DNA of 54,621 nt from contig JADIIU010000088.1 of the NCBI GenBank assembly GCA_027603945.1, positions 1-54,621 of the forward strand. The letters are read 5' to 3'. The translations under genes were made by a program, and so were the position numbers. Shown piece by piece: positions 4,129-49,319 of the stretch (positions are counted from its first letter, which is position 1; each line of letters starts with the position of its first letter). The notes under the pieces were generated by a model that saw only the letters and a program-made list of their open reading frames with translations, ran no database searches and had not been told where the DNA came from. The stretch comes from Terramyces sp. JEL0728 (Eukaryota > Chytridiomycota > Chytridiomycetes > Rhizophydiales > Terramycetaceae).

Positions 4129-5776
4129 ATGAAATTGGTTCATACTTGTGATTTCTGCGTAAAGAGGGTATCAGATCCGTTAAACGTTAGAAGAGGAAAT
4201 GCGATCGCAAGCAGCCCTGTTCCTTGTGCAAAGAAAAGAGCATTCCGTGCGTATATACTCAGCAAGAATTTCTAATAAAGGACTACTCGAGGATAGAGAA
4301 CAGGATAAAGAATCTGGAAATATTGCTCATAATGCCATTTAAATATTCTTGGGAAAGCAGAGATCAAGCACCACCAAAAGCTGTAAACTATCAACTGTCA
4401 CAGAGATTAGAGCACTATTTATTTGAAATTAACCACAGCTACCTGATTGATTTGCGCTTTGAAAAAATCCCTTCGATATTCTCGTTTGTTACCAAGGACT
4501 ATATGGTGGAATCGGCAAAGCAGTTTTGGCCGTTAAGATTCACCCTTTATGCTACAGGAGCACTGTATCTATCCGAAAAACAGGTGCCAAAGGGGATTTG
4601 CGATCGGGTAGAGTTGGCCAGTGTGTTTCTAGAGAAATCCGTCACATTCAATTTTTACGACAACAACAATCCTCAAACAATACTAACTCTGGCACAATTG
4701 GCTTTCTCGTACCTACGTAACTGGTTATAATCATAGGGTTGGACAGAAGGGAGGCTTATTTATATGCTAGTATGGGACTCTTGTTTGCGAAAAACTTGGG
4801 AATCAACACAGAGACTGGAATCTCAAAGATATCTTCATTTGATTACGAAAGAGAGAATATTAGAAGAATATGGTGGCTGTTGTATCACTTGTATGCCCTG
4901 AATCCTAGGAAATTTGTAGATTGCAGTGTAGTATCCCCGGCAGATAATCAGATATTTTTGCCATCAAGTATATATTATGAATCTGAAACACCTTTGGATT
5001 ATTATGGCATAGAAATAATGTCTAGTGCAGAATGGTACATTCCCTCCATACCAGACAGAGATTTTCAAGCTTACAGAATTATACTCCACAAAATCCAGCT
5101 GAATATTTTGAACTATGTGCACTTGGAGTTGCTCAATGAGACAGCAAATGTCAGGTATATTGCCGGATCGCTCGACGCATCTTTAAATGAATGGCACGGG
5201 AATGTAATTGGAATAGTAAAGTATCATGCATTCAAAGTGCAAAATCAGTTAATAGAAGACCCTGAACTGACCTGGCTGGTGCTAGGGCTGTATATCATAC
5301 ACAATAACGCAAGGATAGATTTGATTATTCCAAAATTCATGAAGAGTATCATCAAAGGAAGAAACGTCGAAAACTTGCTTTATTTTAAAGAAGCTGTTGA
5401 GGCTGCAATTGAAAATACCTTGGTGCTGGACTTGATCAACAACTACAACCCGACATTCAACTATTTGCATGCATACATTATTTACGCACTGTTTGTTTGT
5501 GCGTTTCTGCTGCAGTGCTGTATCAAAATACCCTCGGTATGCAATGAAAAAATCATCAATGCGTATGAAATGCATTTGAACCTACTTGCGCTTCACGGCG
5601 TTGCTTTTCAACGAACCTCGCTTTACTACAGCCTGATACTTCATCTGGACGACCTGGATATCTACCACGCTGTTTTAGTTTACGGTGAATTCAGGGCCAA
5701 GGGCTTTTCACTCTTGGGCAAACCTACAGTAAACCATGTGGAAAAGTTTGAAAGCATGACAATAAAGAGTGAATAA
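4129..5776 (+). CDS. Zn2Cys6 fungal-type transcription factor
   Basis: 534 aa after removing two introns: 4168-4190 (23 nt) and 4717-4736 (20 nt). Exon 1 is only 13 codons and carries the first two zinc cysteines (CDFC). Splicing to 4191 gives KRKCDRKQPCSLCKEKSIPC, so the six cysteines fall in the canonical C-x2-C-x6-C..C-x2-C..C spacing. A short heptad-like linker (IENRIKNLEILL) follows. The rest resembles the fungal-specific transcription factor middle homology region, including SYLRLDRREAYLYASMGLLF across intron 2 and ENIRRIWWLLY. Expected role: sequence-specific DNA binding as a dimer in the nucleus. Target genes are unknown; the next gene is an extracellular esterase. The family is essentially restricted to fungi and is the best taxonomic clue in the window. 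Confidence 0.88.
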
Positions 5777-5901
5777 TCCATTGTCTATCAACTTTGTCCT
5801 GCATTAGAGTATTTGATTGATCCATCTCAGATGCCGATGTCCTGGCATCAGATAAAACATCGAGGGTCCACTTGATTAGGAAACGATATGAAACACAAGG
5901 A

Positions 5902-5908
5902 TATAAAA
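5902..5908 (+). promoter_or_regulatory. TATA box of the carboxylesterase gene
   Basis: tataaaa lies 31 nt before the ATG at 5933. The same arrangement recurs upstream of four other secreted-protein genes in this window. Confidence 0.6.
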
Positions 5909-5932
5909 ACACGGAAATAATAATAGAAATAT

Positions 5933-7510
5933 ATGCTGTCTTTGCTTGTATCAACTGCCCTTTGTGCTCCATTTGGATTTGACAATCACCAAACGTCCAA
6001 CCCGATAGTCACCATTTCGCAAGGGCAATTCAAAGGAACTTCTGATTCCCAGGTGTCTGCTTGGTTAAACATCCCTTATGCTCAACCGCCAGTTGGTGAA
6101 TTGCGTTTCAAACATCCAGTGCCGTTGGGCAGCTCTTCCCAACTGTTTGATGCTACAAACTTTGGGAATAGCTGCATTCCGAGGATACAAAACTCCACCT
6201 TCTTTTCCAAGCTGATTTCAGGCACGCCTTCTCCAGTTGCAGAAGATTGCTTAAACCTGAATGTGTACGCGCCAAACAATGCCAAGAACCTACCAGTTAT
6301 GGTCTTTGTATTCCCAGGTGGGTTTGACAGCGGCGATGACCATCAAGGCGCTATATACGATGGCAGGAATATCTTGAAACACTTTCCAAATGCAGTCATA
6401 GTAGCAATGAACTACAGGATAGGGCCATTTGGATTCTTGGCATCTACTGATCTGGAAAACGAAGGGTCTTTAAACAGTGGGCTGTATGATGTCAAATTAG
6501 TATTTGAATGGGTTAAACAGAATATCGCAGCCTTTGGTGGTAATCCAAGCCAAATTACCGCGTTTGGCGAATCAAGTGGTTCTATCACGGTTTCTTCATT
6601 ATTGGTTGCTGATAATGGTAACCAAACGTTATTTGACAGAGCGATTCTTATGTCTGGACCTAACGGATATGCATTTGACAAGCCAAGTTCGCCAAGAAAG
6701 GAGGGTGTTTATACAAAGCTGGCAAACGCGGTCGGTTGCACTGGCCAGCCAAATTTGCTAGAATGTCTTCGCAACGCAACTCCTGACCAAATTATCAAAT
6801 ACTCTACCCAACTAGAATCTACTGATATGGAATTTGGATATGGGCTGACATTTGACGGGTATTTGCCAAGAAATACTGTAGATGCTTACCAGAAAGGTTT
6901 ATTCTCAAAGATCCCAGTTGTAATTACTACAGTAGAAGCTGAAGGCTCGCTGATGAATGGCCCGCTTGTAGCATTCCCAGTAACAAATAGTCAGCAATAC
7001 GAAAATCTGCTGACTGAGAAGTTGGGTGAATTTGGCACCCCAGCTATCATTAAACAAATGCTGCAGATTTACGATCCGAAAAAGTATTCAAATTACGTGG
7101 AAGCCTTTGGAGATTTCATTGGCGATTTCTGGTTCAAATGTCCTGCTTCGCTAATGGCCCAAGTTTGGTCAAACAACACACTCCCAGTCTATGTTGGTAG
7201 AAATAGACACGTTCCAGTGCTGTCTTATATTGCTGGAAACACAAAGGCTTTCCATACTTCAGACTTGATTTTAGCTTGGGAAACTAGAAGCTTGATGTTC
7301 CCAACTGAATACAGCTTATCTGACTTTGTCGCTGGATATTTTGTAAACTTTGCTAATGGGAATCCACCGACTAACAACTGGCCATTGTATCAGTCTAGCC
7401 AACGTATTGATATTGAATCGCAAAAGGTAGAGGTAGATGCGGATCAATTGAAACCAGCTTGTAAAATCTATTACAACAATGCCGGATTCGTAACCCGTTC
7501 TGATCAATAA
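5933..7510 (+). CDS. Secreted type-B carboxylesterase
   Basis: 525 aa, no intron. A short hydrophobic leader (MLSLLVSTALCA) predicts secretion. Family landmarks run in order: LNIPYAQPPVGELRF, EDCLNLNVYAP, the oxyanion-hole region VFPGGFDSG, AMNYRIGPFGFLA, and the nucleophile elbow GESSGS with Ser214. The acid is probably Glu337 (VEAEGS) and the base His441 (AFHTSDL). The usual motif is GESAGG, so the elbow is slightly divergent but catalytically complete. It should hydrolyse carboxylic esters outside the cell, as in type-B esterases and lipases; the substrate cannot be told. A TATA box sits 31 nt before the ATG. The gene converges with the Aurora kinase gene, leaving 41 bp between stop codons. 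Confidence 0.9.
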   Translation: MLSLLVSTALCAPFGFDNHQTSNPIVTISQGQFKGTSDSQVSAWLNIPYAQPPVGELRFKHPVPLGSSSQLFDATNFGNSCIPRIQNSTFFSKLISGTPSPVAEDCLNLNVYAPNNAKNLPVMVFVFPGGFDSGDDHQGAIYDGRNILKHFPNAVIVAMNYRIGPFGFLASTDLENEGSLNSGLYDVKLVFEWVKQNIAAFGGNPSQITAFGESSGSITVSSLLVADNGNQTLFDRAILMSGPNGYAFDKPSSPRKEGVYTKLANAVGCTGQPNLLECLRNATPDQIIKYSTQLESTDMEFGYGLTFDGYLPRNTVDAYQKGLFSKIPVVITTVEAEGSLMNGPLVAFPVTNSQQYENLLTEKLGEFGTPAIIKQMLQIYDPKKYSNYVEAFGDFIGDFWFKCPASLMAQVWSNNTLPVYVGRNRHVPVLSYIAGNTKAFHTSDLILAWETRSLMFPTEYSLSDFVAGYFVNFANGNPPTNNWPLYQSSQRIDIESQKVEVDADQLKPACKIYYNNAGFVTRSDQ

Positions 7511-7551
7511 ACATTTTGATTACAACTCTTTATAAAATCAAACATTCGCTT

Positions 7552-8541
7552 TCAAGAATTATATTTGGTGATAAATTCGTGAGTAATCACTCCGTTTAGC
7601 CGCAATCTCTTTTCGGGTTCTTTAACCAACAGCTTTCTAATCACATCTTTGGCTTCCGGCGACAAATAATCAGGAAACTTCAAATCAATCTTTGCAATTC
7701 TTTTGTATGTTGCCTTGTGACTGGTGTGATCTTCAAATGGCGGCACTCCAACTACAATTAATGAATACAAACCGAGGAATTCATAACACAAGACGCCGAG
7801 AGACCATAGATCAACATCTTTTGAATGGTCTCTGCCCTCTACCATTTCAGGCGGTAGGTAGTCCAGTGTGCCGCACATTGTCGTTCTTCTGCTGTTTGGT
7901 GCGTGAACCGACCATCCAAAATCTGCAATCTTCAACTCCCCATTCATTCCAAGCAGCAGGTTTTCTACATTAACCGACTCCAACCTGGTTTAATGTCTCT
8001 GTGAATAACATTCTTTTGGTGAAGATACGAAAGCGCATTGGCCATTTGTAATATATATTTGCTTGTAGTCTCTTCATCAAATCGAGTCTTTTTTTGCAGT
8101 TGCTTGTCAATTCAGAGTTACTTTGTACATTTCCCCTTGTGCTGCATACTCCAATATCAAGTAAACACGCTTCTCGTCGTAAAAGTAGCCTTGTTAGCAA
8201 CGGAATACCTGGATTAGAAATAGTAACCATATAAACGCAAGATGTTTGGGTGTCTTAGATGAGATTGAATCTCTATTTCCCTGCGAAGTTGTTTCTCCAC
8301 CTACAATTAAAAAATCTTACTCTGTTTTCATGCAGCTCCTGCTTGAACATCACCTTAAGAGCCACTACATATCCGCTCTTTTTTTCTCTGGCCAAATACA
8401 CTCTGCCAAATTTCCCTCTTCCCAATGCTTTACCTTTGGTCAAGATGGATTACCAACATCGAAATCATCCAGACACCATCTCTTTGGTTCTTTCTTTTCC
8501 TGATCTTGGACTGTAAGCTTGCTTAGTTCTGCACTCAGCAT
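7552..8541 (-). CDS. AURK: Aurora-type mitotic Ser/Thr kinase
   Basis: 283 aa after removing six introns: 8434-8453 (20), 8301-8320 (20), 8190-8227 (38), 8103-8121 (19), 7965-7984 (20) and 7752-7772 (21). The spliced product is a compact kinase with a 30-residue N-terminus. It has a glycine loop [10 protein letters not shown], the ATP lysine in VVALK (K56), HRDIKPEN (D150), DFG (D168), and the Aurora-specific activation loop [16 protein letters not shown] with the regulatory threonine near T182. Auroras drive chromosome segregation and cytokinesis with INCENP-type partners, and a member also promotes cilium disassembly. The last intron (7752-7772) is 21 nt with no stop, so an unspliced reading adds seven residues between FL and VGVPPFE. 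The 38-nt intron is described separately. Confidence 0.92.
8190..8227 (-). other. 38-nt intron built from two abutting 19-nt intron units
   Basis: Read on the minus strand, gttactatttctaatccag (8227-8209) is followed directly by gtattccgttgctaacaag (8208-8190). Each half alone has GT, a TAAY branch-like motif and AG, at the commonest intron length in this window. Removing all 38 nt joins LYG to YFYDEKRVY, the conserved Aurora sequence. Keeping the first half puts an in-frame stop in the message. Confidence 0.75.
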
Positions 8542-8616: not shown

Positions 8617-9584
8617 CTAGTTCAACATTTCAATATAGAGTTGCGTGGATTCATCAACTTCTGCATTCGTGTCCACGACCTTAAAATGATCCTCTACTTT
8701 ATTCCCTGTCATAAGGAGTTTGAATCCATCTTGGAATACGTTTGAAAAGCTCATTCCCCCATGGACTACAATTCCATTGTCAACTACACATGCGTGGTCA
8801 ATCCTGCCGTTGTATTTGCCCTGTACTTTCCATTCACCATCATAGGAAACCAGTGTATCGTGAATCATCAACGGTTGCGTCTTCATCCCGCCGTATACAT
8901 ACAGCTTGTCGTTGTAGTTGACACACGTATGGGCACACCGTTCCTCAAATGCTTCCAGCTGTGTCCATCTATTGGTTTTAGTATTGAACTGCCATAGATC
9001 ATCCAAAGTTTTCTCTTTACACATCCCACCATATACGTACACCATATCGCCTGGATTAAATCCTAGTACCTATTGCGCATATGGAATGGCCAAGTCGCTT
9101 GGACGGACCGCTGTTACTCACTTTGATCCACACCAATTTATTTGTTTCCAGGCAGTACATGCCTTGTTAATCGCAAATTACCTGTATCTTCAATCGGCTC
9201 ATCGTTATATTGGCCACCGCCAAACACATAGACTCGATCTCCAACAACACCCGCTGATCGAAGAATTCTAGGCGTGATGGATCCTTTAATTTCCAAGTCG
9301 CTCCATGTTTGTGTTTCAGTATCAAAGAGCTGTGGAGAAACCAGAGGGCCGCTCTCGCCAGATCCAAATAGAACCAATAAATTTTGTTTCAATGGGATTG
9401 CAGTGTGTTCGTAGCGTGGAATCGTGCTTGAAGATAGCTGTTTCCACGTCCCATCCAGCAAATACAAATCTGATTTAAATCCTTCTTCGTGAGACGCTCC
9501 TCCAAACATGTACCATTGATTATTGATTTTAGTTATAGAGTGGCCCGCTCTAGGTGATGGCTGCTCAAGCTCTATTTTTAACAT
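8617..9584 (-). CDS. Kelch-repeat beta-propeller protein
   Basis: 309 aa after removing introns 9163-9181 (19) and 9051-9069 (19). The start is the ATG at 9584; the frame is open further upstream, but that part overlaps the next gene. About five kelch blades are visible: PRAGHSIT..WYMFGGASH, PRYEHTAIPL..LLVLFGSG, PRILRSAGVVGDRVYVFGGG, KRLGHSICAIGDMVYVYGGM, and RCAHTCVNYNDKLYVYGGM, with a weaker DHACVVDNGIVVHGGM. Each has the diglycine and the W/Y spacing of the family. Kelch propellers are protein-interaction scaffolds; no extra domain is present to suggest a specific pathway. Both introns interrupt blades and their removal restores the repeat. Confidence 0.85.
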
Positions 9585-11639: not shown

Positions 11640-12945
11640 TTATTTCCGTTTTCTTAAAAGCTTCCTTTTCCACTCTTGATAGTCAATAACTTTGTTTGTC
11701 AATCTTGCCTCTTCAGCACAGAAAACGATTAAATGGCTCGTCAAAGTTTCCTCCACTCCTGCTTTAATTATCCCTTGATCCTTTTCTTCTACTGCCCTCA
11801 TGAAATCTGAAATCAAGCCAATGTCACCGCCTAAATAAAATTCAGATAACCTCCATGATTTTCAAAACTGAAATCCAGCTCTTTTCTGGTAATAATTTCC
11901 TGTTTGCCAGCTGTGAAATTGTATATTTTGATATCTTGTCCATTAAAGTCGATTTCACCATCCGTGCCAAATATTCTTGTTTTTCGTTGGCAGATATCTT
12001 GGGTATGTGCAACCATTGTGAATGTAACTGTGATGTCTTTGAACTGCATATTCACAACTTGGTTATCCACTAGATTAAAACATGTTACCAACATCGTTAT
12101 CGCATTCGTAAACACACTTTCCGTAATCAGTAGTTCTCAGCGCTCTTTCCAAACTTTCTACATCTATAATTTCATCTACAATAATGGCACTAGTGGGCCA
12201 TTCATCGGCGGGCTTGTAAATCTTTTCCGCAGAGTAGCAGCACTGCTCATAGTTGCAATCCACACATCTAGTAGCAGTGCCAGCCTCTTTTGGTTTATTG
12301 GACTTTTTGAAATAGTTCAAGCTACCAAAGGAAGATACATACTGTATTAACAAAGCTTACCTTTAATTCTGAATCGCAAAACCAATTGATTATATCGATA
12401 TCATGGCAGCTTTTCGTCATTAGCGAGAAGCACGAATCAGCAGTTTTATGCCAGTTGCCTCGGACGTATGAATGAGCAAAATGCCAATTTCCAACTGGCT
12501 CCAAATGCTGAATGTTTACCACCTTGCCAATACGTCCATCTCTGATCAACTGTTTGATTTTTTGGTTGAATTTAGTGTATCGCAGGACATGGCCAACCGC
12601 AAATAAGCACTGGTGCTCCACAATACTGTTATAGATCAACAAGCAATCTTGCGCTGTTGTTGCCATAGGTTTCTCTAATAGAATATCATATTTCAAAGCA
12701 GCAAAGTGTAATAAACAGTCCGTATGAAGCGCATCTTGACAGCAGATCAGCACGCAATCAGCTATCTTTGCATTTATCTTCTTGTAATCTTTAAATTCCT
12801 GTGCATTGTATTTCTTGCTAAACCGCTGTCTCCTGAAATCATTTGGTTCAGCAACTGCAATAATTTTCATCTTTGGGTTTTGTAATGCATAGGAACAGTA
12901 AATATTTCCTCGTTGTCCTGCCCCAACAAGCACAACTGTCGGCAT
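11640..12945 (-). CDS. Gfo/Idh/MocA-family NAD(P)-dependent oxidoreductase
   Basis: 415 aa after removing introns 12342-12360 (19), 12070-12088 (19) and 11831-11850 (20). The N-terminus PTVVLVGAGQRGNIYCSYA is the Rossmann dinucleotide-binding motif of the subgroup with GAGxRG. Next come VAEPNDFRRQRF, the family motif LLEKPMATT (EKP lysine), and VGHVLRYTKF. CHDIDIINWF is the usual catalytic or substrate region. Members reduce or oxidise sugars, inositols or related polyols; the exact substrate cannot be called. Splicing the last intron gives GGGDIGLISDFMRAVEE, a typical substrate-domain helix, and the stop falls at 11640. The presumed promoter upstream holds a 12-bp palindrome (13055-13066). 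Confidence 0.85.
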
Positions 12946-13172: not shown

Positions 13173-16100
13173 TTATTCTGCCGATAAAAAGAAAGCTACT
13201 CCTGCCAAGATCCACGGACTAGGACTGTCCAAGAACGGCACGCATAGGTTAGTAACAGTCTTTTCCCTTGTGGGAGTGACATATACCGGGACGTTCATTT
13301 TTCCATTCATATAAACATTTTCTTCTGGTATCCAAGCTAGCTGGAAGGAAGGAACCGCGGCAAATATTGGATCATTAGCGCTGGCTTCAAGCATATTCCT
13401 TCCATCAAATGTACACCCTTGGATCCAAAGGCTTTCAACCGTAATGCTGTACAAGTTATTTCCTTCGTCCGATCTCCAGGAAGAAACTAATTTCAAAGTA
13501 TCCATCGGTCGTTGCACTAAATTAGTTAAAGTTACATTTTCTTGAAGTCAATTGTCTTTGAGCATTGAGGAAAGTAACCGGGTTGAACAAGTGTCCAAGC
13601 TGCAGCGGTGTGCTGAAGAATGTTCCTGACAACACTTTATCTCTATAGGAACTAACTGCGAGGCATTTGCAGACAACATTTTCAATAAATAAATGGACTG
13701 TTCCAGGACCTTCCCAAACGTCCAGCCATATCTTTGGAGTTTCGCCGTTAACAAGAGCAGTTCCTATCTGCTGAACTTCATTCGATAGCAAGGCTGTTCC
13801 TCTCAAAATCTTTGAAATTTCTCCAAAGTGGGTATGAATAAATTGAACCAATTTCAGCGCGTTGATTAATTCCAAATCAAAGAATGAAATAATTGGATCG
13901 CCATTTGGTTGGGATGCAATCTTTTTTTGCAAAAGATCATTACCGGTATTCAATTTCTTCCAAAGTTGTAACAAAGGCAATATCTGCAGAGTCCACTTTT
14001 CCTTGTTGAACCGTTGTGCGTGAACTGCACTGCGTTTCTGTCATTAAAATATATTACCAAGTGTTGCAATTTAGAAATAATATCCTGACTGGTATTACTT
14101 TGCAGCGTTCGGTCAATATTAGCTGGCAGACCCAAAGTAAGCACATTGTCCAATTCAGGCAGTTCGTTAATAATTTGCTTGTAGGATGTGTGATCAGTTG
14201 ATCTAGGAAGGACAAATTGCTTTCCAAACTTTTGCGCTCCAGATTTTCCGTCCGGTGGAAATATCTCATTGTTGAAAATCTGTGCGAGGTACGTTTCTAG
14301 TTTGAGTTCATCCTGTTGATCGTCTATTCTTCCTCCATAAATCGCACTCTTTAGTAACCCATGAACAATTTCCCATTGAATAGTTTCTCCCGATGAAAAC
14401 ATGGACTAGTTTAAAAATCAATTACGTGAAGTATATCTGCACTCGAACGTAAATCGGCGGCTGAAAACTCGTAAAACTTGTTCCAGCCTTGCGGAATATA
14501 ATTTCTTCTTTCTTGGATCACAGCATGGAACCAAGCAAGTGCGAATAACGCTTGCGACCTAACATAGTTTCCGTTAGCTATAAATTCTGGAGACCAGTTG
14601 TCGTATATTCTTTTCAGGTTCTTTTTCAGTCCTGGTGGTGCTTCGACAGTAATCTTTAAACAAGACTCCAACAAGCTAGCCGGGAACTTTGGATGCGCTT
14701 CCGATGTCAACCACAACCGAAAGTTTTCATGTGGTTTCCCGCTAGCCAGCTCTTTTTCCAATTGGAATGCCCATCCAATCACTAAATGGATATTTTGCAG
14801 GTAGACCCAGTCTCCATTTTGTTTTGCGGAACGCACTAGCTGAATTGCTGTGTCTCCTTGCCCTTGACCCATAGATACCTAGTATTACCGCAAATTACCT
14901 CATGGAACTTGTCTGCTCCGATTTGAGAAACTGCGAATTCCCGAATATCTTGGGATGGATCTGCACCTGGAGTTATGATAAATAGTATTGGTTCCGAAGC
15001 ATGCGTTTCGTTACCCAGCAATGACTTTAAATTAAGCGTCGGCGGCGATAAACTATCTTGGTTCAAAGCAGCCGTGCAGAATATAGTCACTAATATTAAT
15101 GTATATTTACTAGCAGTTAGTAATCTATCTGGTCTTAGCGCTTGTACTATCAGCAACTTCTGGAACGGACTTATCCTGTCCTTTGGGATAGAACTTTCGC
15201 AATTTGGATCTTTCATCCATTTTACCCAAATATCCTTGCTGCCAAAATTCACAGTATTCACCAAAGTAGGAAGGGTATTCTATAATTAATCTAGCAGTAC
15301 CGTCAGTTTCAAGAAATAAGTCTTTCGATCAAGTGGGACCCAATCTGGTGTTTCAACACTCTCTGAGGTTTCGGTTGTCAAGATTTGGCCGGTAAATAGC
15401 TCCCATTCGTTTGTTTCGCACATATTCGGATAAAGTTCATGTAAAAGATATAGTGCAAACATATGTCTATCAGCCTTGAAAATTGAGCGTGAGATATAGT
15501 TGAAAATCAATTTTTCAAGAGAAACCTGAAGCAGCTGGTTCCGCATTTCCACGTTATTGTTTGTGTTTTCAGATGCGAGTGAATGATTGAATATCCTCAA
15601 GAATGTAGCTAACGAGAATTGATACATGTTGTTTAATTTGTACAATTCGTTTACTACAAAATACAATGCACTCCCATGTGCTGAAATACTCGTGTATTTT
15701 TCTCTTTCAAGATCCAAATCCCTTTGTAGAGATCTTGATTCTGTTAGGCTGGTGGCTATGATGCTGCTTTTCTCTTTGGCTTCATTGAGAGAGTTGATTA
15801 ATCCCTTGTTTTCCAGAATGTTTCCTTCTGCGTTTGCCAGTTCTTTGAGGAGTTGATCTTCGAAATTGGTCAATTGAATCTTTAATTCTTCCTCCTTTTT
15901 AAGCAGTTCGACTTTTTGAAGCTCCAGTTCCGGTCGTTCATGCTTCAATGTCAGTCCCAGTAGTTTTCCGGCCAACCCTGCCCTGGTGATGGTAAAATTG
16001 ATGTCATTGATAAAACCTCGAACGTAGGTTGGAAGTGTAAATGTGGATCGTCTGGTAACAAGAATTAGTTTAAAGTCTCCGTTGTAGTCAATTGTCTTTT

Positions 16101-28108: not shown

Positions 28109-28182
28109 TAAATTAGCATATCAAATAGTGCTTAACAATCAGCTGTTACAGCCACCATGACTGTGTTTGTCCCTATAATGGG

Positions 28183-28602: not shown

Positions 28603-30400
<1,798 letters not shown>

Positions 30401-30470: not shown

Positions 30471-31083
30471 ATGGTTTCCAGTCACCATAAATTTTCCAAG
30501 CAAATGATAACATTCGTAACAGGAAACAAAAACAAACTAAAAGAATCTATGGAAATACTGGGCACGCAGTTTGAAATAACAAACCAAAACATTGACTTGG
30601 ATGAAATACAGGGCACACCACAAGAAATAGCAATTTACAAATGCAACCTGGCATTGAAAGCAATCAACGGTCCAGTACTTGTTGAAGACTCTTGTCTCGG
30701 ATATACGGCAATGAACGGACTGCCTGGCCCCTATGTAAAATGGTTTCTCAAGTCACTTGGGCCGGAAGGATTATACAAGTTACTAGATGGATTTGAGGAT
30801 AAGCGGGGGTTCACATTATGCACAGTTGCATACGCTGAACCAGGGATGCACCCCAGTACATTTATTTAATATAGTTTTGTTTGAAGGCAGAGCAGATGGA
30901 ACGATAGTTCAACCGCGCGGCCCAAGAGACTTTGGCTGGCAACCGATATTTCAACAAGACGGGTGCGAGTTGACGTATGCTGAAATGGATCTAGATCCAG
31001 CGACGAAACAGCACAAGAATACAATCTCTCATCGTGGCAGGGCTTTACAAAAACTAAAAGAATATCTAAAGAATAAACCATAG
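30471..31083 (+). CDS. HAM1: Inosine triphosphate pyrophosphatase
   Basis: 197 aa from the ATG at 30471, or 186 aa from the ATG at 30504 ([11 protein letters not shown]), which is where homology starts; I cannot choose with certainty. One intron, 30856-30874 (19). Conserved family segments are [45 protein letters not shown] and a C-terminal ISHRGRAL. The enzyme hydrolyses ITP, dITP and XTP to monophosphates, which keeps deaminated purines out of nucleic acids. It shares a 70-bp divergent promoter, rich in T and A runs, with CTP synthase. Confidence 0.93.
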
Positions 31084-36800: not shown

Positions 36801-39800
36801 TCTGCTGCTGCTGCTAAAGGACAGCAACTATGAGCTAGACTTGATCCAAAAGGGATTAAACCAATACTTGGAAATCAAGAGACTGTACTTTCCAAGATTC
36901 TTTTTCCTTTCTAACGATGAAATGCTTGAAATACTCTCTGAAACTAGAGATCCAACCAGAGTACAACCGCATTTAAAGAAATGTTTCGAAGGCGTGAATA
37001 GTCTCGAGTTCACATCTAACATGGATATTTTAGGAATGTACTCTAGTGCCAAGGAATATATTCCGTTCACCAACAGTATTTCTACTAATGATGCTGCTGG
37101 ATCTGTTGAGAAATGGCTGCTGGACGTGGAAAAAACAATGCTGGCTAGCATGCGACAAGTTGTATTTGCCGGCTACGAAACCTACTCTGACACACCAAGA
37201 GAAAAATGGGTCCTGACATGTCCGGGTCAAGTTGTGCTTGGCGTGTCGCAGATATTCTGGACAAGAGAGGTTGAGATGGCAATATACTCGAATAAGGAAA
37301 ATGCCCTTCGTATATTTGAAGAAGTCAATACAGATAGGTTATCAAAGATTGTCGATCTGGTTCGGGGCAATTTGTCCAAACTAAACAGAAGCACCCTGGA
37401 AGCGCTAGTAGTTGTAAGTTTATTTTTATATTAGATTGATGTGCATGCTAGAGATGTCGTTGGCCAACTCGCATCGGCAAATGTAAGTAACATCAACGAC
37501 TTTGCATGGCTCAGTCAGCTTCGATACTATTTTTCAACTCCAGAAGAAGGGCTGATTGTAAAAATGATCAACTCTGTCCAAAAGTACGGCTATGAATATC
37601 TGGGTAATTCCGCGCGTTTGGTCATCACGCCGCTAACGGATCGTTGCTATCGCACACTATTTGGCGCATTGCAACTCAACCTCGGCGGTGCTCCAGAAGG
37701 ACCTGCTGGAACTGGTAAAACAGAGTCTGTCAAGGATTTGGCCAAGGCACTGGCCATGTTTTGTGTCGTATACAACTGTTCGGACGGGCTGGACTTTATT
37801 GCTATGGGCAAATTCTTTAAAGGACTGGCATCTGCTGGTGCCTGGGCATGTTTTGACGAATTCAATCGCATAGATTTGGAAGTTTTGTCTGTAGTTGCCC
37901 AGCAGATACTGACTATTCAAAGAGCCAAGGCTGCAAAAGTTGAAAAGTTTGTGTTTGAAGGTACAGAATTGAACATGAATCCAGTGGCAAACGTATTCAT
38001 TACAATGAACCCTGGCTATGCTGGTCGCAGTGAATTGCCAGATAATCTCAAAGCACTCTTCCGTCCGGTAGCGATGATGGTGCCAGATTATACGCTTATT
38101 GCCGAAATTTCGCTGTATTCGTTTGGATTTGTGCAGGCTAGGTCGCTGGCTGTGAAAATTACTGCAACCTACAAGCTATGTTCAGAACAGCTCTCGTCAC
38201 AAGATCACTACGATTACGGCATGCGAGCAGTAAAGTCTGTTCTAAACGCCGCCGGTGCTCTCAAATTAAAATATCCTCAAGAGTCAGAAAACATTCTTGT
38301 TCTTCGATCCATTATAGATGTAAATTTAGCAAAGTTCTTGTCTCAGGATATTCCGTTGTTCAAAGGCATCACGGCTGATTTGTTCCCTGGAGTTACTTTG
38401 CCTACCCCTGATTATGCAACACTAATCAGAGCGTTGGATCAAAATTGCGAAAAGTTTAATTTGCAAAATGTTCCAGCATTCATGGAAAAGGTACTTCAGA
38501 TATACGAGATGATGCTGGTCAGACACGGCTTTATGGTTGTTGGAGAATCTTTTGCCGGGAAAACATCAGCCTATAGAGTGTTACAAGGAGCGCTGACTGA
38601 TATCAACAAACAGGATGCAATGCAAGAAGCAAAAGTGGTTGTGCAGTGTTTAAATCCAAAATCAATTACTATGGGCCAACTGTACGGCCAGTTTGATCCA
38701 ACTACCCACGAATGGTCTGATGGAGTTTTAGCTGTAGGGTTTCGCACTTTTGCGTCCACTCCCACTCCAGATAGAAAATGGATCATTTTTGACGGACCTG
38801 TGGATGCCATTTGGATTGAAAACATGAACACTGTGTTAGATGACAACAAGAAACTGTGTCTCAATAGCGGAGAAATTATCCAGCTGTCATCTGTGATGAG
38901 TTTGATCTTTGAGGTCAGGGACTTGGCTGTCGCATCTCCAGGTAATTGTAATTAAAGTTAGCCACTGTGAGTAGATGCGGTATGATTTTCATGGAGCCGG
39001 CAAGAATTGGATGGAGAGATACGCTGGTTGTTTCGTGGATGTATAAAAACACGGTATTGGAAGAGAATCAAAAGAACATGATTTCTGATTTCATTGATTG
39101 GCTGCTCCCCCCACTTTTATCGTTCTTGAGAAAGGATTGTGTCGAAATTTCAGAGACTTCTGATAGCAACCTGGCATTTGCATTCTTGAACATTTTCGAA
39201 TCCTTATTAAACGATGCGGCTGGATCGAAAGCAGACAAACCGGGAGCAGTGAGCACCAAAAACGTTCAAGGCTGCTTCCTGCTTGCTATAATTTGGTCCA
39301 TTGGAGGTAGCGTGAACGATGCATCAAGACCTAAATTCAACGATAATATGAGGGCAATATTTAATTCCCAGAAGCCTGCTCAAATGGAAATATCGTTGCC
39401 AGAAGGTTCGATTTACGAATTCGTGTTTGAAACATCCTCCTCTACTTGGAAACATTGGTTAACTACTTTACCGGAAAACTACACCATTCCAGCCAAAATT
39501 AAATACGACCAGATAATGGTGCCAACCCTGGATACTGCTCGTTATTCGTACTTGCTACAGCTGCTCATTCGCTATTCAAAACAAGTACTGTTTGTCGGAC
39601 CAACAGGTACTGGTAAATCCATGTATATCAAAGACACTTTGATGAATGTAATGAATAAGGACATATTTATTCCGGTATTCGTCAACTTTTCTGCTCAGAC
39701 CAGTGCTTATCAAACGCAGGAAATTATAGAGTCGAAACTGGACAAGCGGAGAAAAGGAGTATTTGGGCCGGCAATGGGCAAAAAATGCTGCATTTTTGTT

Positions 39801-42800
39801 GACGACCTGAACATGCCAGCTAGAGAAGTGTATGGTGCCCAGCCGCCAATTGAATTACTTCGACAATGGATGGATCACGGCGGATGGTACAATCTCCAAG
39901 AAAACAGCATGCAAGAATTTACTGATATTCAGTTTATTGCAGCCATGGGTCCCTCTGGAGGTGGCAGGAGCCCAATTACGTCAAGATTCCTTCGTCATTT
40001 CAATGTTATTTCCATCACATCTTTTGACGATCAAACACTCCACAAAATATTTGAAACTATCTTGGATTGGCACTTGAAATCCAACAATTTCTCCAAAGAG
40101 CTGCAAGGGCTCAGCAAAAATATTGTATCTGCGACTCGTGAAATCTATCGGGGTTCGATGAGCAACCTGTTGCCAACTCCACGAAAATCCCACTACACTT
40201 TCAACCTGAGAGATTTCGCAAGGGTTATCCAAGGGGTTTTACTTGTAAAGGCGGATAGTGTGTCTGATGTGCCAAAAATGGTCAGACTGTGGTTACATGA
40301 AGCATTTAGAGTGTTCTATGACCGCCTAACAGATGACGAAGATAGAAAATGGATTTTCAATTTCAGCCAGCAAACTGTCAAAAACTGCTTTGATCAGCCG
40401 TTCAATGCCGTTTTCAAAGACTATGACTTTGACGGGGATGGAGCTGTCCAAGAAGATGACCTTCGATCACTTTTGTATGCAACTTATTTGTCGCCAAGAG
40501 AGGCATCTGGAAAAGCTTACAATGAAATATCCGACTTGCAGGAGCTGACAAACTTTATGGATAAAGCTTTGCTGGAACATAATCAGATCAGCAAAAAGCC
40601 GATGGATTTGGTAATGTTTAGATTTGCAATTGAGCACATCTCGAGAATATCTCGTGTGTTGCTGCAGCCAAGAGGAAACATTTTGTTGGTTGGTGTAGGT
40701 GGAAGTGGGAGACAAAGTTTCACAAGACTAGCGGCATATGTCGCAGAATTCGATGTATTCCAAGTTGAGATTGCAAAGAATTACAATATTACAAACTGGC
40801 ACGATGATTTGAAAAAAGTATTCCGGGTTGCTGGAGGACAAGGCAAACCAACAATATTCCTGTTCAGCGACACGCAAATTCAGGAAGAATCGTTTTTGGA
40901 AGATATCAACAACATACTGAATGCTGGCGAAGTTCCAAACTTGTATGCAAACGATGAAAAACAAGAAATGTTTGAGCTGATTCGTCAAGACTACAAATCA
41001 ATGGGTAAAACCTTCGAAGGTACCCCAACGGCAATGTTTAATGTATTTGTCGATAGATGTCGTGAAAACTTGCATTTATGTTTGGCAATGAGTCCGGTAG
41101 GTGAAGCTTTTAGAGTTCGTCTCAGGCAATTCCCATCGCTGGTAAATTGCTGCACCATTGATTGGTTCAAAGACTGGCCAAATGATGCGTTGGAAATGGT
41201 AGCAACTAAATTTTTGAAGGATGTCGAAATGCCGGATAAAATCAGACAGGATGTTGTCCAGATGTGTCAATACTTGCACGAGTCGACACGGCTCACTTCG
41301 CAAAAGTTCTTGCAGCTATTTAGACGACACAATTACGTTACCCCAACATCATATTTGGAATTGATTCGAACTTTCAAGTCACTTTTGGCTCTGAAACAAG
41401 CAGCTGTGCTAAAACTGAAAAATAGATATGTCAATGGCTTGGACAAGTTGACATTTGCTCAAAATGCCGTGTCGAAAATGCAAGTCGATTTGGGTGATTT
41501 GCAACCACAGCTAATCAAGACGCAAGGGGAAACAGACAAGATTATGGTTCAAATTGAAGTAGAATCTAAAGAAGTGCTTGCAACAAAGAGCGTAGTGTCG
41601 GTTGACGAAGCGATTGCCAGTAAGAAAGCAGCAGAATCAAAAGCTATTAAGGACGACTGTGAAGCACAATTAGCAGAGGCTATCCCAGCACTAAATTCTG
41701 CGGTTGCTGCTTTGGACACACTCAAACCCGCTGATATCACAGTTTTGAAATCAATGAAGAGTCCACCTGCAGCCGTAAAACTGGTCATGGAAGCCGTTTG
41801 TGTGATGAAAGATATTAAGCCTGTAAAAATTGCAGATCCGGCCGGGTCTGGTAAAAAAATTGAAGATTATTGGGGACCTTCGAAAACTTTGATGTCGGAT
41901 ATGAAATTCTTGGAAAGTTTAAAGATCTATGACAAGGATAATATTTCACCTGCAATCATGAAAATAATCAGATCAAAGTATATCGACAATCCCGAATTTG
42001 TACCCGAATTGATTCGATCTGCCTCATCTGCTGCTGAAGGTCTTTGCAAATGGGTAAGGGCATTAGAAGTGTACGACCGGGTAGCAAAAGTAGTAGCCCC
42101 AAAGAAGCTTGCTTTGGCACAGGCCGAAAGTGAACTAGCGGAAACTATGGTGAGTTTGAACGAAAAGCGAGCAACGCTCAAAGCTGTCGAGGACAGAATG
42201 CAGGCTTTGGAAGACAACTTTAAAGCAATGACCGAAAAGAAAACGCAGCTAGAAAACCAAGTCGACTCTGTTTCAAAGCAACTAGTCCGTGCTGAACAAC
42301 TGATTGGCAGTTTGGGGGATGAACAAGAACGGTGGACCCAATGCGCAATTGATTTGCAGGTACAATACACGGCATTGACTGGCGATGTGCTGGTATCTTC
42401 TGGAATTGTTGCATATCTTGGAGCATTCACAAAAACGTTTAGAGATGAATGTGTCAGCAATTGGGCTGCCAGATGCAAGGAAAGAAACATTCCGTGTTCG
42501 GACGAAATCAAATTAGCAAATGTACTGGGCGAGCCGGTGAAAACTAGATCCTGGGTATTGGCAGGGTTGCCCAACGATTCGTTTTCTATTGACAACGGCA
42601 TCATGATTTCAAATGCAAGGCGATGGCCACTAATGATTGATCCTCAAGGACAAGCAAACAAGTGGATCAAAAACATGGAAAAGTCAAAGAATCTAGCAGT
42701 AGTGAAACTAACAGACTCTGACTATGTGCGCACTTTGGAAAATGCAGTGCAGTTTGGCACACCGGTATTGCTTGAGAATGTTGGCGAGCAGCTTGATCCT

Positions 42801-45800
42801 GTGTTGGAGCCTATTTTATTGAAGCAAACTTTCAAACAAGGCGGGATTACGTGTATTAGATTGGGCGATGCGACGGTCGAATATTCTCCAGAATTTAGAT
42901 TCTACATAACCACAAAACTAAGAAATCCACACTATCTACCAGAGTTGTCAACAAAAGTAACCTTGTTAAACTTTATGATTACTCCAGAAGGGTTAGAAGA
43001 TCAACTTTTAGGAATTGTAATAGCAAAGGAACGACCAGAATTGGAAGAAATGAAGGTGCAGCTCCTGCTACAGTCTGCAGACAACAAAAAGCTGCTGCAG
43101 GAATTGGAAGATAAGATTTTAGAAGTGCTTTCGTCGTCGCAGGGCAATATTTTAGAAGATGAAACAGGTATTCAAGTGCTGTCATCATCCAAAATATTGG
43201 CTAAAACCATCTCTGAAAAACAAGCAATTGCAGAGAAAACCGAAATTAAAATTGACGAGATCCGTGTTGGATATAAACCGATTGCATATCATGCCTCGGT
43301 AATGTTCTTTTGTATCGCAGAACTCGCAAATATTGAGCCCATGTATCAATATTCACTTGCGTGGTATATTAACTTGTTTATTAACTCTATTGAATCCAGC
43401 GAAAAATCGTCTGATGTTACAGTTCGGCTGCAAACTCTGCGAACTCATTTTACAGAATCGCTATACGGAAATGTCTGTAGATCGCTGTTTGAAAAAGACA
43501 AGTTGGTGTTTTCATTTTTGCTGACAGTTTCTATACTTAAATCCGCAAACGAAATTGACGCAACAGAATGGAGATATATATTAACCGGTGGTGTTGGAGT
43601 GAGCGAAACGGCAGTGGCAAATCCCGATAATACTTGGATTACTGAAAAGTCGTGGAGTGAAGTTTGTCGCCTGTCTGATATTCCTGCTTTCCATGGATTC
43701 GCAAAGGCATTCAATGAACATATTACAGAATGGAGAAGACTGTTTGATAGCCAAGATCCCCAAGAATACACATTGCCAGGGAAATGGGACGAAAAACTGA
43801 ATCCATTCCAGAAATTAATGGTACTCCGGGCAATCAGACCAGATAAAATGATACTTGCAATTGCCAACTTTATTGTGCTGAAAATGTCAAAGAAGTTTGT
43901 AGAGCCGCCGCCATTCAACTTGGCAAACAGCTATGCAGATTCCAACAATTGCTCACCTCTAATTTTCGTGCTGTCCCCTGGTGCTGATCCAATGACTGAA
44001 CTGCTTCGATTTGCAGATACCAAGGGAATGGGAGGAAGCAAAATCAACTCTATATCTTTAGGTCAGGGACAAGGGCCGATTGCTGCAAAGATGATTGCAC
44101 AGGCAATCACAAACGGCTTGTGGGTGGTGTTGCAGAACTGCCACTTGGCAATAAGTTGGATGACGGCCTTGGAAAAGATTTGCGAAGATCTGTCACCTGA
44201 AAATACACACAAGGAGTTTAGACTATGGTTAACTTCATATCCTTCGGATAAGTTTCCTGTTACACTGTTGCAGAATGGCGTAAAGATGACTAATGAACCT
44301 CCGAAAGGATTGAAAGCAAACTTGAAAAAGTCGTATCTCAGCGATCCAATCAATGACAAAAGCTTTTATCAAAATCCACAGCAGCAAGACGTGTTTGAAA
44401 AAATGCTGTTTGCATTATGTTTCTTCCATGGCGTAGTCCAAGAAAGAAGACAGTTTGGGCCAATTGGTTGGAATATTCCCTATGAATTCAACGACACAGA
44501 TCTCAGAATATCCGCAAGGCAGCTCAAAAACTTTTTGGCTGAATATGATGAGGTGCCGTATGACGCTCTAGTATATTTGACAGGTACGTGAAATATAATT
44601 TCTAGGCCAATGCAACTATGGTGGAAGAGTCACTGATGATAAGGACAGAAGAACATTAATGACGCACTTGACAGCATTGTACAACCCAGATATCAACAAC
44701 AAAGAGGTAGGCTTAATCTTATTTAGAATTTCCAATTCTCTGTCAGCGGGACATATGCTGTTCCGACCGACACTAGCTATGATGGAATATTGGCATACAT
44801 TAACGAATTGCCAATGGATGCAAAGCCAGAAGTATTCAACTTGCATGAAAATGCAGATATTGCTAAAAACCAGCTGGAAACTGATTCGTTCTTTAAAGCC
44901 ATCCTGCTGACCCAAGGTAAAATGGAAGCAGGCGGGTCCAAATCCAACGAGCAAATTGTCACGGAAGTAGCAACCGATATGCTAAACAGGTTACCAAGCG
45001 CATTTGATATTCAATTAATCTCGCAAAAGTATCCTACAGATTACTTTGAAAGTATGAATACCGTGTTGTTGCAGGAGGCTATTAGATTCAGAAAATTAAC
45101 TGAAGTAGTCAGGGACAGTCTGAAAAATATCCAAAAGGCAATGAAAGGGTTGGTAGTTATGTCGGCAGAACTTGAAGATGTGTATAACAGCATACTTTTG
45201 GGTACAATTCCAAAATTGTGGGCTGGGAAAAGCTATCCTTCGCTAAAACCACTTTCAAGCTACTTTAACGACCTGTTGCAAAGACTGTCCTTCCTACAGA
45301 AATGGGTCAGCGATGGCCAGCCTATTGTATTTTGGATATCTGGATTCTTCTTTACCCAGAGTTTCTTGACTGGATGTCTGCAAAACTATGCCAGAAAACA
45401 CACAATCCCCATAGACTTGCTGGGGCTAGAGTTTATAGTGCAGCCAACGAAATCAGCCGGTGTCCGGCCAGAAGAAGGACAATATGTAAATGGTTTATTC
45501 CTAGAAGGTGCGCGATGGGATATTAAAATGAATTCTATAGCTGAATCTTATCCAAGGGTGCTGTTTGACGCTATGCCGATTATTTGGCTGAAGCCCGGAG
45601 AAAGATCCAAGTTTATCACCAATGCCACTTATGAGTGTCCGGTTTACAAGACTGCGGCAAGAAGAGGAACACTTTCAACCACGGGGTAATTTCTTTTTAA
45701 CAATAGACACAGTACAAACTTTGTAATGTCAATGAGAATCCCAACCAACGTCCCAGAGGAAGTTTGGATATTGAAAGGTGTCGCGGCTTTGACAAGTTTA

Positions 45801-45809
45801 AGTGAATAA
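33802..45809 (+). CDS. DNAH7: Axonemal inner-arm dynein heavy chain (DNAH3/7/12 type)
   Basis: About 3954 aa after removing seven introns: 34283-34302, 34619-34637, 37414-37434, 38942-38961, 44584-44605, 44707-44726 and 45686-45706 (19-22 nt). The short tail and the [14 protein letters not shown] segment point to the single-headed inner-arm class. Visible parts are AAA1 GPAGTGKTE near residue 1280; AAA2 GESFAGKTS near 1560; AAA3 GPTGTGKS near 1905; an EF-hand-like loop [12 protein letters not shown] near 2185; AAA4 GVGGSGRQS near 2270; stalk and microtubule-binding domain around 2450-2850; and the C-terminal [12 protein letters not shown] and [11 protein letters not shown] segments. The last exon ends [19 protein letters not shown]. 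It drives microtubule sliding in the flagellum. The DNAH3/7/12 subtype is a judgement; the class is firm. Confidence 0.93.
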
Positions 45810-45837: not shown

Positions 45838-46482
45838 TTACGCAGGAGTTAATAACAAACCCCAATACATTGTTTCCACACCAGTTTCAGAATCTTTATA
45901 TCCAAGAAACATTTCCTTTCTCAAGACTCTTAATTTCAACTCCAACAGCATTTCATCCAGCTCTTTCCCTTCCATATGGTTTAACGAATCATTTTGGGTC
46001 GCTGGGATGGTTAATCCAATATATTTTCCAGGGTTTGCATGCGAAATGAATTTTACCAGCATTTCTCTGATATCGGCCACAAAATCCAGCACTCCCACTG
46101 AGTTAGTAGCTATTACCGCACATGATTGCGTCGTATGAATCAACTTCAAACGGTAGCTGGATATCTTGGCACACGAGCTTGAAGAATGGATATTTTTTCG
46201 CAACCCCGAGCATCTAGATCAGACATAAGCTACTTGAGGACTAGCATCAATCCCTGTAACTTGATAGGTAAACTTTTCATTGAAAAATATCTGCGATGAC
46301 TGTCCAGTGCCGCATCCAACATCCAATATTTTTGGATTTGCTACTAACGAGTTTTGCAAGATCTCGTGGACCCATAAGCTTATTATGTGAGGTGCAGGAT
46401 ACGTATCTATTGAAGTTTCCTTATCATATAGATCTGCATATTTTTGATAAAATTCGTTGCTTTCTTGTACACTCCATCCCAT
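45838..46482 (-). CDS. Class I SAM-dependent methyltransferase (METTL27-like)
   Basis: 201 aa after removing introns 46214-46233 (20) and 46098-46116 (19). The ATG at 46482 gives MGWSVQESNEFYQKYADLYD, which resembles the start of the METTL27 (WBSCR27) group. Motif I is ILDVGCGTGQSS; the following strands are VTGIDASPQML (acidic ribose contact) and, after intron 2, YDAIMCVGVLDFV. The C-terminal half carries GKYIGLTIPATQN. The substrate is unknown. It converges with the dynein gene, with 28 bp between stop codons. Four 16-bp tandem repeats lie 72-135 bp upstream of its start. Confidence 0.8.
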
Positions 46483-47235: not shown

Positions 47236-47370
47236 ATTAATAAATTATATATTTTGGCAATTGGCTGATGCAGTCCAGAATTATATTTATTCAGAACATC
47301 AAATTAAACTATTTAATGTTGAAAAATAAGCTTTGGAGAGCTTGATTGACTTGAATTCAACTTTGAAATA

Positions 47371-47951: not shown

Positions 47952-48493
47952 TCATGCTATTATTATGCAAAAAGCTAATCCATTTAATTCCTTACCCCTA
48001 CGTCTCATAGATTCACTTTCGGATATTGCCGCTAAATCCATCACTTCCACAACCCTACCATCAAGATTATTCCCGTAAACTGCTTGGAATGCCTTAGAAA
48101 CCATTCCAACACAGCAGCCCTCCACAGCCCCTGTCCAAAAATAAGCTTTAATAGTATCCACTTTTTGTATTTCAAAATGTTCAACAAATTCGGTTTCTAC
48201 TATTCTTGGCCTTCCTCTTGCCTTCTTTGTTGGCAAATCTTGGATAACTGCAACTTTAGTTATAACAGGAATATCTACCGTTCCTTTACGGAGCATTAAA
48301 TGCATTCCGGGTTGAACTTGAATTCCACAATTTGATGGATGCAGCGCACACATCCTTCCGTCACTTCCGTGATTCAATCCAACAATTTCTAATGTTTTAT
48401 ATTTTTCTTTGAAATAGTTATTGGAGTATGTGCACTTTGGTTCATTAATAATAATAACCTCTTGTGATAAATGAAAATCGAAATGGCATACGA
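47952..48493 (-). CDS. Member of an unrecognised gene family (5' end undefined)
   Basis: The open minus-strand frame reads about 180 residues. It includes HLSQEVIIINEPKCTYSN, then GRMCALHPSNCGIQ, an AT-hook-like KKARGRPR, and FWTGAVEGCCVGMVSKAFQ. There are several cysteines and a charged SESESMRRRGKE tail. No in-frame ATG precedes the conserved part and a stop lies just upstream, so a 5' exon is probably missing from this reading; an AG at 48494 is a plausible acceptor. A second, truncated copy lies at 49514-49790, which shows this is a repeated family. No function can be assigned; the AT-hook hints at DNA binding. Confidence 0.45.
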
Positions 48494-48881
48494 CTAAATA
48501 ACATTATTTTTCGGGCCTTAGACACTCAGAATTACGGTAATAAATTTCACAAATTTTTCATTGAACAGGCAATTGCTGATATTGATTTAACTTGTCCAGT
48601 CTGCCTAAACTCAAAACTATAAATACTAGACAAATTCAATAGTATATTAATGCAAATGCACAGAGGTCATTAGTCACAGAAGCCATTGCTATCATCATAG
48701 ATCTCATTTTCATGCAGCCATACACATGTCATTTAAACTCCGAATTGTAAATTATATTTCAACTTGTAATAAAATAATGGATACAAATTCATATTGAGCT
48801 GCAAACGATCGCTCAGCACATGGGAGAACTTGATCCGATTCATTAAAGATTATTATATTAATACGAAGGGAAACGTTTATC
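48494..48881. other. Intergenic stretch
   Basis: AT-rich, begins with a roughly 50-bp sequence that recurs at 49738 and 51816. On the plus strand a short frame reads RLNNIIFRALDTQNYGNKF then IEQAIADIDLTCPVCLNSKL, too short to call a gene. Confidence 0.35.
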
Positions 48882-48972
48882 AGTTAGAATAGGAGTTTAT
48901 AGGAGTTACAATAGGAGGTGCAATAGGAGTTTAAATATGAGTTAAAATAGGCGTAATAGTTAGAATGGGGGT
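48882..48972. repeat. Imperfect 12-nt tandem repeat (agttanaatagg)
   Basis: About seven units such as agttagaatagg, agttacaatagg, aggtgcaatagg and agttaaaatagg run up to 18 bp before the TATA box of the next gene. Confidence 0.7.
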
Positions 48973-48989
48973 GTTTTAACATTTAAACT

Positions 48990-48996
48990 ATAAAAG
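48990..48996 (+). promoter_or_regulatory. TATA box of the Gln/Asn-rich secreted protein gene
   Basis: tataaaa, 35 nt before the ATG at 49025. An out-of-frame ATG at 49009 lies only 19 nt from it and may fall upstream of the transcription start. Confidence 0.6.
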
Positions 48997-49024
48997 GAGC
49001 AACAAAAATGCGAGTAAATAAACA

Positions 49025-49319
49025 ATGAAATCAATCCTTATCCTCCCATTTGCTCTTGTTACCGCTTTACCTCAATACTCCAATATCGCAATTTGCCAAC
49101 AAAATGCTGCAATTGCTTACCAAAACCAACTCATCACTTATCAAAACCAATTAAATTCTCAAGTAATTTAAAAGATTAACTTAGATAAATACCTATTATA
49201 ACAATGGGGCTTGGGCTACTTGGAATTACAATAATGTCAATAGTGCTTTGACCAATTATGGTAATGTAGTTAATCAACAATTGACTGCTTATCAAGCTGC
49301 ACTAAATGCTTGCCATTAA
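49025..49319 (+). CDS. Small secreted Gln/Asn/Tyr-rich protein
   Basis: 90 aa from two exons; intron 49163-49184 (22 nt, gtaattt..ttaacttag). Signal peptide MKSILILPFALVTALPQ. The mature peptide of about 75 residues is built of Q, N, Y and A (AYQNQLITYQNQLNSQ; WNYNNVNSALTNYGN) with single cysteines near each end (ICQQN; NACH) that could pair. No family recognised; the composition suggests a wall or adhesion peptide. Too short and split to appear as one open frame, but splicing gives an exact multiple of three and continues the same composition. Confidence 0.65.

Follow-up and report, generated by a model that had tools for sequence, protein, structure and literature searches.

Introns of about 20 nt in genes of the chytrid Terramyces sp. 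JEL0728

A class of very short introns

Genes of the chytrid Terramyces sp. JEL0728 are interrupted by introns of about 19-21 nucleotides (nt). We read them, with a probability of about 95%, as U2-type spliceosomal introns that have shrunk to a near-fixed unit, most likely recognized whole by its spacing. The starting material was a single contig of 54,621 nt (hereafter the window) from a genome assembly of 15.0 Mb in 231 contigs. A spliceosomal type is supported by GT-AG ends, a branch-like motif, the presence of a U2 small nuclear RNA (snRNA) and of five splicing proteins in the genome, and the restoration of protein motifs when the introns are removed. An earlier inspection of the letters of the window (the original prediction) had described these introns and proposed a comparison with other chytrids, a frame that the source organism (Chytridiomycota, Rhizophydiales) bears out.

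By hand we curated nine window genes with 36 introns, these being the ones that could be curated. Their lengths were 19 nt (13 introns), 20 nt (12), 21 nt (7), 22 nt (2), 23 nt (1) and 38 nt (1). Thirty-five of the 36 fell between 19 and 23 nt, the sole longer one being a 38-nt tandem. The original prediction had given 35 of 38 introns at 19-23 nt in 11 genes; the predominance of this length range stands, while the totals of 38 introns and 11 genes were not reproduced. The three introns it had singled out were located at 25627-25645 (-) in the cytoplasmic dynein 2 heavy chain gene DYNC2H1, at 34619-34637 (+) in an axonemal dynein gene and at 9051-9069 (-) in a kelch gene. After splicing, all nine curated genes were open frames and, as had been claimed, exact multiples of three.

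Lengths were also estimated with a gene model that had no preference for short introns. This flat-prior model was single-strand, used codon preferences and allowed GT..AG segments of 12-300 nt at one flat cost; its splice-site information was limited to GT and AG, and it was re-trained before counting. The sample comprised the window, a 10-kb region from each of 20 other contigs and a small U2 locus (257,814 bases together). In genes of at least 300 amino acids (aa), 51 of 142 introns were 19-22 nt long (12, 22, 13 and 4 at 19, 20, 21 and 22 nt), and each length outside this range was seen at most three times. The 19-22-nt peak persisted at four intron costs. When intron lengths were restricted to 12-40 nt, the flat model called 145 introns of 18-24 nt, with 45 at 19, 59 at 20, 27 at 21 and 8 at 22 nt. 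The peak at 19-21 nt was found in the 20 regions beyond the window too. The distribution has a sharp mode near 20 nt and is not the tail of a broader one; the short calls of the motif-aided model described below and the flat-prior runs agree in this. The tiny introns are a real and strong observation.

The GT..AG ends were confirmed by comparing all 256 dinucleotide pairs as borders of bridged segments. For bridges of 17-24 nt, GT-AG ranked first with 70, the other 255 pairs having a mean of 12.4, a standard deviation of 6.3 and a maximum of 38; some of the higher-scoring other pairs may represent the same introns read with a shift.

A second, motif-aided model, trained on short introns, was run over 254,621 bases (the window plus 200 kb outside it). 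It called 251 introns, 190 of them 17-26 nt long (62 at 19, 78 at 20, 34 at 21 and 11 at 22 nt). Its figures lean on the motif model and its branch positions are partly circular, which does not apply to the flat-model lengths. The 200 kb outside the window held 164 of the 190 short calls, from which we extrapolate about 12,000 such introns genome-wide. At least one short intron was present in 68 of 116 complete genes of at least 100 aa.

The short class could be real and still coexist with many introns of ordinary length. In favor of such a mixture, 61 of the 251 motif-aided calls lay outside 17-26 nt. Among 75 distinct long calls, 18 started with a short unit, 27 ended with one and 38 had one at either end, compared with 10.9% (start) and 10.3% (end) of background sites. 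The remaining 37, which also speak for a mixture, had a short unit at neither end; they may represent miscalls, several introns merged into one or a small number of genuine long introns. Against the mixture, GT-AG bridges of 30-300 nt numbered 108, below the mean of 139.6 for the other 255 pairs, so there was no long-intron excess and no sign of a long class. In addition, nothing but the 38-nt tandem exceeded 23 nt among the 36 curated introns. We consider a mixed population unlikely. Long intron calls in the Aurora and Kelch genes were rejected, as they resolved into short introns on manual curation.

Donor, branch and acceptor

Without any motif model beyond GT and AG, 130 of the 145 flat-model introns of 18-24 nt began with GTA, in line with the GTA donor claimed for most introns, and 91 of 145 had YTAAY upstream of the AG. 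Donor position +5 was G in only 31 of 145. The commonest donor hexamer among the 190 short motif-aided introns was GTAATT (32). YTRAY occurred in 142 of these 190, compared with 15% in shuffles, a figure that is partly circular. In the 142 introns with YTRAY, the branch A was at +14 in 79, at +15 in 50 and at +16 in 9, and the tail after it, including the AG, measured 5 nt (83), 6 nt (51) or 4 nt (4), i.e., 138 of 142. Two to four bases between branch A and AG leave no room for a polypyrimidine tract, the absence of which had been correctly predicted. The further claim that most introns have a TAAY-type branch motif holds loosely: among the curated introns, YTRAY was found near the acceptor in 25 of 36 and was absent from 11.

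An in-frame stop was present in all 27 introns of 21 nt called by the flat model and in 32 of 34 called by the motif-aided model. We rejected the 27 of 27 as a sign of selection, because the flat model can hardly call stop-free introns whose length is a multiple of three. Three stop-free 21-nt introns were shown by homology (28779-28799, 7752-7772 and 15090-15110). A strict-threshold motif scan of seven window genes for more of them listed none, although 15090-15110 was present; the scan was therefore too strict.

Protein motifs restored by intron removal

As the original prediction held, intron removal restored conserved motifs in a CTP synthase, an Aurora kinase, a MocA oxidoreductase and parts of two dyneins, judged against homologues.

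The CTP synthase gene (28603..30400, -) had introns at 30069-30090 (22 nt), 29719-29739 (21 nt) and 28779-28799 (21 nt, stop-free). With two introns removed, the product was 100% identical over 584 aa to the GenBank protein of Terramyces sp. JEL0728, whose model likewise excises the 22- and 21-nt introns; the next-best match was from Boothiomyces macroporosus (93%). We compared it with 29 further proteins, those ranking next among the best 120 matches listed. Removal of the 22- and 21-nt introns regained a 12-residue motif and SPDIIACRSS (substitutions allowed), and at each of these two sites 28 of the 29 homologues aligned without a gap, the exceptions being the Kappamyces protein (P0004) at the first site and the Entophlyctis protein (P0028) at the second. 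In the GenBank protein the third intron is translated, as GKYPTNL. This insertion was absent from all 29 homologues; six of them had two extra residues at or just before the site. Homology showed a gene-model call at 29705-29722 (18 nt) to be wrong; 29719-29739 took its place.

The Aurora-type kinase gene (7552..8541, -) had introns at 8434-8453 (20 nt), 8301-8320 (20 nt), 8190-8227 (38 nt), 8103-8121 (19 nt), 7965-7984 (20 nt) and 7752-7772 (21 nt, stop-free). The spliced protein of 283 aa matched Pkinase (1.1e-75) over residues 28-278. It was compared with 18 Auroras from other species or metagenomes, chosen from the best 120 matches listed; the kinase domain was gapless against 16 of them, and the other two (P0140, P0153) had small deletions elsewhere. 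The 38-nt segment consisted of two complete 19-nt GT..AG introns, abutting with no exon between, each with its own donor, YTRAY and AG. The kinase, in a 15-residue stretch, was restored only when both units were removed. The arrangement could be stwintron-like or a tandem intron duplication, and cutting it as one 38-nt intron or as two would give the same messenger RNA (mRNA). The GenBank Aurora protein translates 7752-7772 as GLYSLIV, which none of the 18 homologues had, and it lacks QLQKK, as if a 19-nt intron had been extended to a 34-nt one also ending in AG. Taken together, the GenBank models of CTP synthase and Aurora remove six of nine introns identically, translate the two stop-free ones and stretch one.

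The GFO/IDH/MocA oxidoreductase gene (11640..12945, -), with introns at 12342-12360 (19 nt), 12070-12088 (19 nt) and 11831-11850 (20 nt), encoded 415 aa with a Pfam match. Its three junction regions aligned with nine homologues, the exception being Boothiomyces (P0241). The Terramyces protein itself was not among the best 120 matches listed.

DYNC2H1 (13173..25795, -) had ten introns and encoded 4141 aa without a stop. Five introns were 19 nt long (25627-25645, 25210-25228, 24866-24884, 19688-19706 and 13517-13535), three were 20 nt (14879-14898, 14406-14425 and 14038-14057) and two were 21 nt (15280-15300 and the stop-free 15090-15110). One phmmer alignment (592 bits), to the DYNC2H1 chain of 4rh7, contained five of the junctions. 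When 15090-15110 (branch A at +15) was kept, the protein had seven extra residues, SKYTLIL, relative to 4rh7; its removal gave LLTAMTIF, which aligned with LQSAMALF of 4rh7. The axonemal dynein heavy chain gene (DNAH3/7/12 type; 33802..45809, +) encoded 3954 aa without a stop and had seven introns, at 34283-34302 (20 nt), 34619-34637 (19 nt), 37414-37434 (21 nt), 38942-38961 (20 nt), 44584-44605 (22 nt), 44707-44726 (20 nt) and 45686-45706 (21 nt). Five of its seven junctions fell within phmmer alignments to the DNAH3 and DNAH7 chains of 8j07, with a one-residue gap near one of them. For the dynein junctions closer to the N-termini, the check was limited to an open frame.

Assembly indels or pseudogenes might imitate introns, and the genome is represented by a single draft assembly. 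Indels arising at random would not produce lengths of 19-22 nt together with GTA and YTRAY..AG, the same pattern repeats over 20 other regions, and conserved genes such as the CTP synthase and the Aurora kinase are affected yet otherwise intact. We give this explanation practically no weight.

Gene models of related chytrids

Boothiomyces belongs, like Terramyces, to the Terramycetaceae (Rhizophydiales). Its MocA model (P0241) lacks 35 residues up to the position of the first 19-nt intron, and its CTP synthase (P0002) is free of such faults at all three intron sites. In the Kappamyces CTP synthase (P0004), ARCKP replaces an 11-residue stretch at the first Terramyces intron site. At the protein level, the Kappamyces and Boothiomyces models with these faults look mis-spliced, as would be expected of an annotation unable to represent very short introns; tiny introns are accordingly predicted in both genera. 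Gene models of this group of chytrids contain errors, including, in two Terramyces models, the translation of stop-free 21-nt introns and the stretching of a 19-nt one.

At precisely the site of the second Terramyces intron, the CTP synthase of Entophlyctis sp. JEL0112 (P0028) carries seven extra residues, INITFNQ. This is possibly a retained 21-nt intron in another chytrid.

Splicing machinery

The U2 snRNA was found in the genome with 140 bits (Rfam) and has the usual branch-pairing box GTGTAGTATCTGTT. The branch motif is complementary to this box, as seen in the YTAAY counts above, though the curated introns lacking YTRAY depart from it. The protein search covered U2AF65, SF1, Slu7, Prp18 and Prp8, all five of which were present. 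In unspliced DNA, U2AF65 scored 252 bits, below the family cut-off of 310.3, and with its 19- and 20-nt introns removed it scored 334 bits, above the cut-off. SF1 carries the helix-hairpin, KH domain and zinc knuckles. Slu7, Prp18 and Prp8 (U5-binding domain) scored above their cut-offs. In models allowing only 15-40 nt, the U2AF65, Slu7 and Prp18 genes had introns of 19-21 nt, the Prp8 stretch had predicted introns of 22, 21, 21 and 30 nt, and SF1 had introns of 19, 15 and 20 nt, the lengths of 30 and 15 being model calls alone.

Yeast can do without Slu7 and Prp18 when the branch lies close to the acceptor. Their predicted loss was tested and failed, both proteins being present.

Proposed mechanism

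The unit would run from GTA(A) over about 13-14 nt to the branch A of YTRAY, followed by 2-4 nt and the terminal AG. The branch motif would be read by SF1 and U2, and the terminal AG, a few nt beyond the branch A, would serve as acceptor. U2AF65 has no polypyrimidine tract to bind and, if active, would work via protein contacts. The human system has other dimensions: about 50 nt between donor and branch are needed in human extracts, with a modelled minimum of about 52 nt for the B complex (PMC6692369). Human factors tied to short introns are Smu1/RED (PMC6692369) and SPF45 (PMC8363638). The distance in Terramyces is 13-15 nt, so that donor, branch and acceptor signals would have to be recognized at very close range. 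Because this lies below the described human B complex minimum, U1 and U2 probably bind successively and not side by side, a hand-over being the simplest reading. We infer the splicing event itself from the intron sequences and the protein comparisons; the succession of U1 and U2 and the part played by U2AF are likewise inferences.

Several points weigh against our reading. To begin with, intron excision is predicted here from genomic DNA and protein comparison. The segments might thus stay in the mRNA, with ribosomes bypassing or frameshifting over them, and bypassing elements do occur in some yeast mitochondria. Such a process would not account for GT-AG ranking first of 256 pairs, for a branch-like motif near the acceptor at a narrow spacing or for the presence of all five searched splicing proteins, and we regard it as very improbable. 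Further points against spliceosomal introns of a near-fixed size are the 11 of 36 curated introns without a YTRAY match, the 61 of 251 motif-aided calls outside 17-26 nt, the 37 of 75 long calls with a short unit at neither end, and the retention of Slu7 and Prp18 despite their dispensability in yeast at a close branch-acceptor spacing.

The RNA searches also count on this side. U1 was not found in the genome by Rfam search, in which only the best candidates were scored, and U6 was found neither by Rfam nor by four core patterns. Two weak U6 Rfam matches (27.4 and 26.9 bits; gathering score 44), on near-identical stretches of two contigs, were rejected as the U6 core was absent. The control genomes gave nothing either, and an intron within U6 would break the patterns. 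U1 and U6 may have diverged, may contain an intron, may be lacking from the assembled sequence or may have escaped the search, and we do not conclude that they are absent.

A more far-reaching change is conceivable. Terramyces and its relatives may have rebuilt early spliceosome assembly to process a donor that lies 13-14 nt from the branch without U1 and U2 being together on the intron. The U1 and U6 RNAs might be altered, and U2AF might have ceased to read a pyrimidine tract; the change would have arisen within the Rhizophydiales without loss among the five searched proteins. We put this forward tentatively and consider it rather doubtful. Batrachochytrium shares the order and has introns of ordinary length, so that a gene-by-gene comparison of the change is possible.

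Comparison with known tiny-intron systems

To our knowledge, the other known tiny-intron cases are nucleomorphs, ciliates and one reduced parasite. The introns of Terramyces are among the shortest known. Our search, over part of the open-licence literature, recognized no fungal or chytrid case, and nothing within that coverage contradicted the original prediction, which knew of no such fungus. In general kind this tiny-intron system is a known one; as far as searched, it is new for fungi. An excerpted survey of 644 fungal genomes shows no such case (PMC8476143). In Cryptococcus, "ultrashort introns" are those of <60 nt, and introns of <40 nt are described as few and poorly spliced (PMC11913375).

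Nucleomorph introns are mostly 18-20 nt long (PMC5014332), those of Bigelowiella natans being 19 nt (PMC2483917). The latter resemble the Terramyces introns in length class, in a donor that is largely GT(A) and in the AG acceptor. They differ in that they belong to a relic endosymbiont nucleus and have no described branch signature (PMC2483917), whereas Terramyces has YTRAY at a narrow spacing. Terramyces thereby departs from the pattern stated in the same source, by which short-intron lineages are said to lack branch signatures (PMC2483917).

In the ciliate Stentor coeruleus, introns are 15-16 nt long and the branch A lies at +10 (PMC9505925). It shares with Terramyces a 5-nt tail after the branch A and the conservation of many spliceosomal proteins (PMC9505925). 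Its branch A at +10 of 15 nt comes without a strong consensus, in contrast to the loop of mostly 14-15 nt and the clear motif of Terramyces. Paramecium, also a ciliate, has longer introns (25-45 nt), which are likewise uniformly tiny, so that stop-free introns with a length divisible by three matter in both (PMC5014332). The parasite Mikrocytos mackini has introns of 16-17 nt and resembles Terramyces in its narrow length range and conserved sequence (PMC10245619). Its reduced spliceosome is described with 17-19 proteins and its genome with 224 predicted introns, compared with about 12,000 extrapolated introns and all five searched proteins kept in Terramyces. Yarrowia, Trichomonas and Giardia also have the branch anchored a few nt before the AG and no polypyrimidine tract; they are classed as intron-poor (PMC2483917), whereas in Terramyces more than half of the modelled genes (68/116) have a short intron and the whole intron is short.

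Other genes and features of the window

Four further curated genes had open frames after splicing. Position 4129, the first coordinate of the original prediction, is the start codon of a Zn2Cys6 transcription factor gene (4129..5776, +) with introns at 4168-4190 (23 nt) and 4717-4736 (20 nt). Removal of the first regained CDFCVKRKRKC, and the joined N-terminus matched Zn_clus (PF00172, 3.2e-10). The Kelch-repeat gene (8617..9584, -) had introns at 9163-9181 (19 nt) and 9051-9069 (19 nt). Its spliced protein gave one PF24681 match (1.8e-57; best stretch 60-235) that spans both joins, compared with 1.3e-14 for the unspliced last exon alone. A Ham1/ITPase family gene (30504..31083, +) with one intron at 30856-30874 (19 nt) encoded a spliced protein of 186 aa, which matched Ham1p_like (PF01725, 1.4e-47) over residues 2-181. 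The methyltransferase-domain gene (45838..46482, -), with introns at 46214-46233 (20 nt) and 46098-46116 (19 nt), encoded 201 aa, with a match to Methyltransf_11 (4.7e-15).

HMG-box and ABC-transporter fragments were found at 26496-28575 (+), where the gene model forces four long introns; these are perhaps gene remnants. Two copies of an epimerase-family gene lay in a tandem duplication (49738-51815 and 51816-53892, 99.5% identity), and a direct repeat of about 285 bases, 92% identical, was located at 48257-48539 and 49514-49789.

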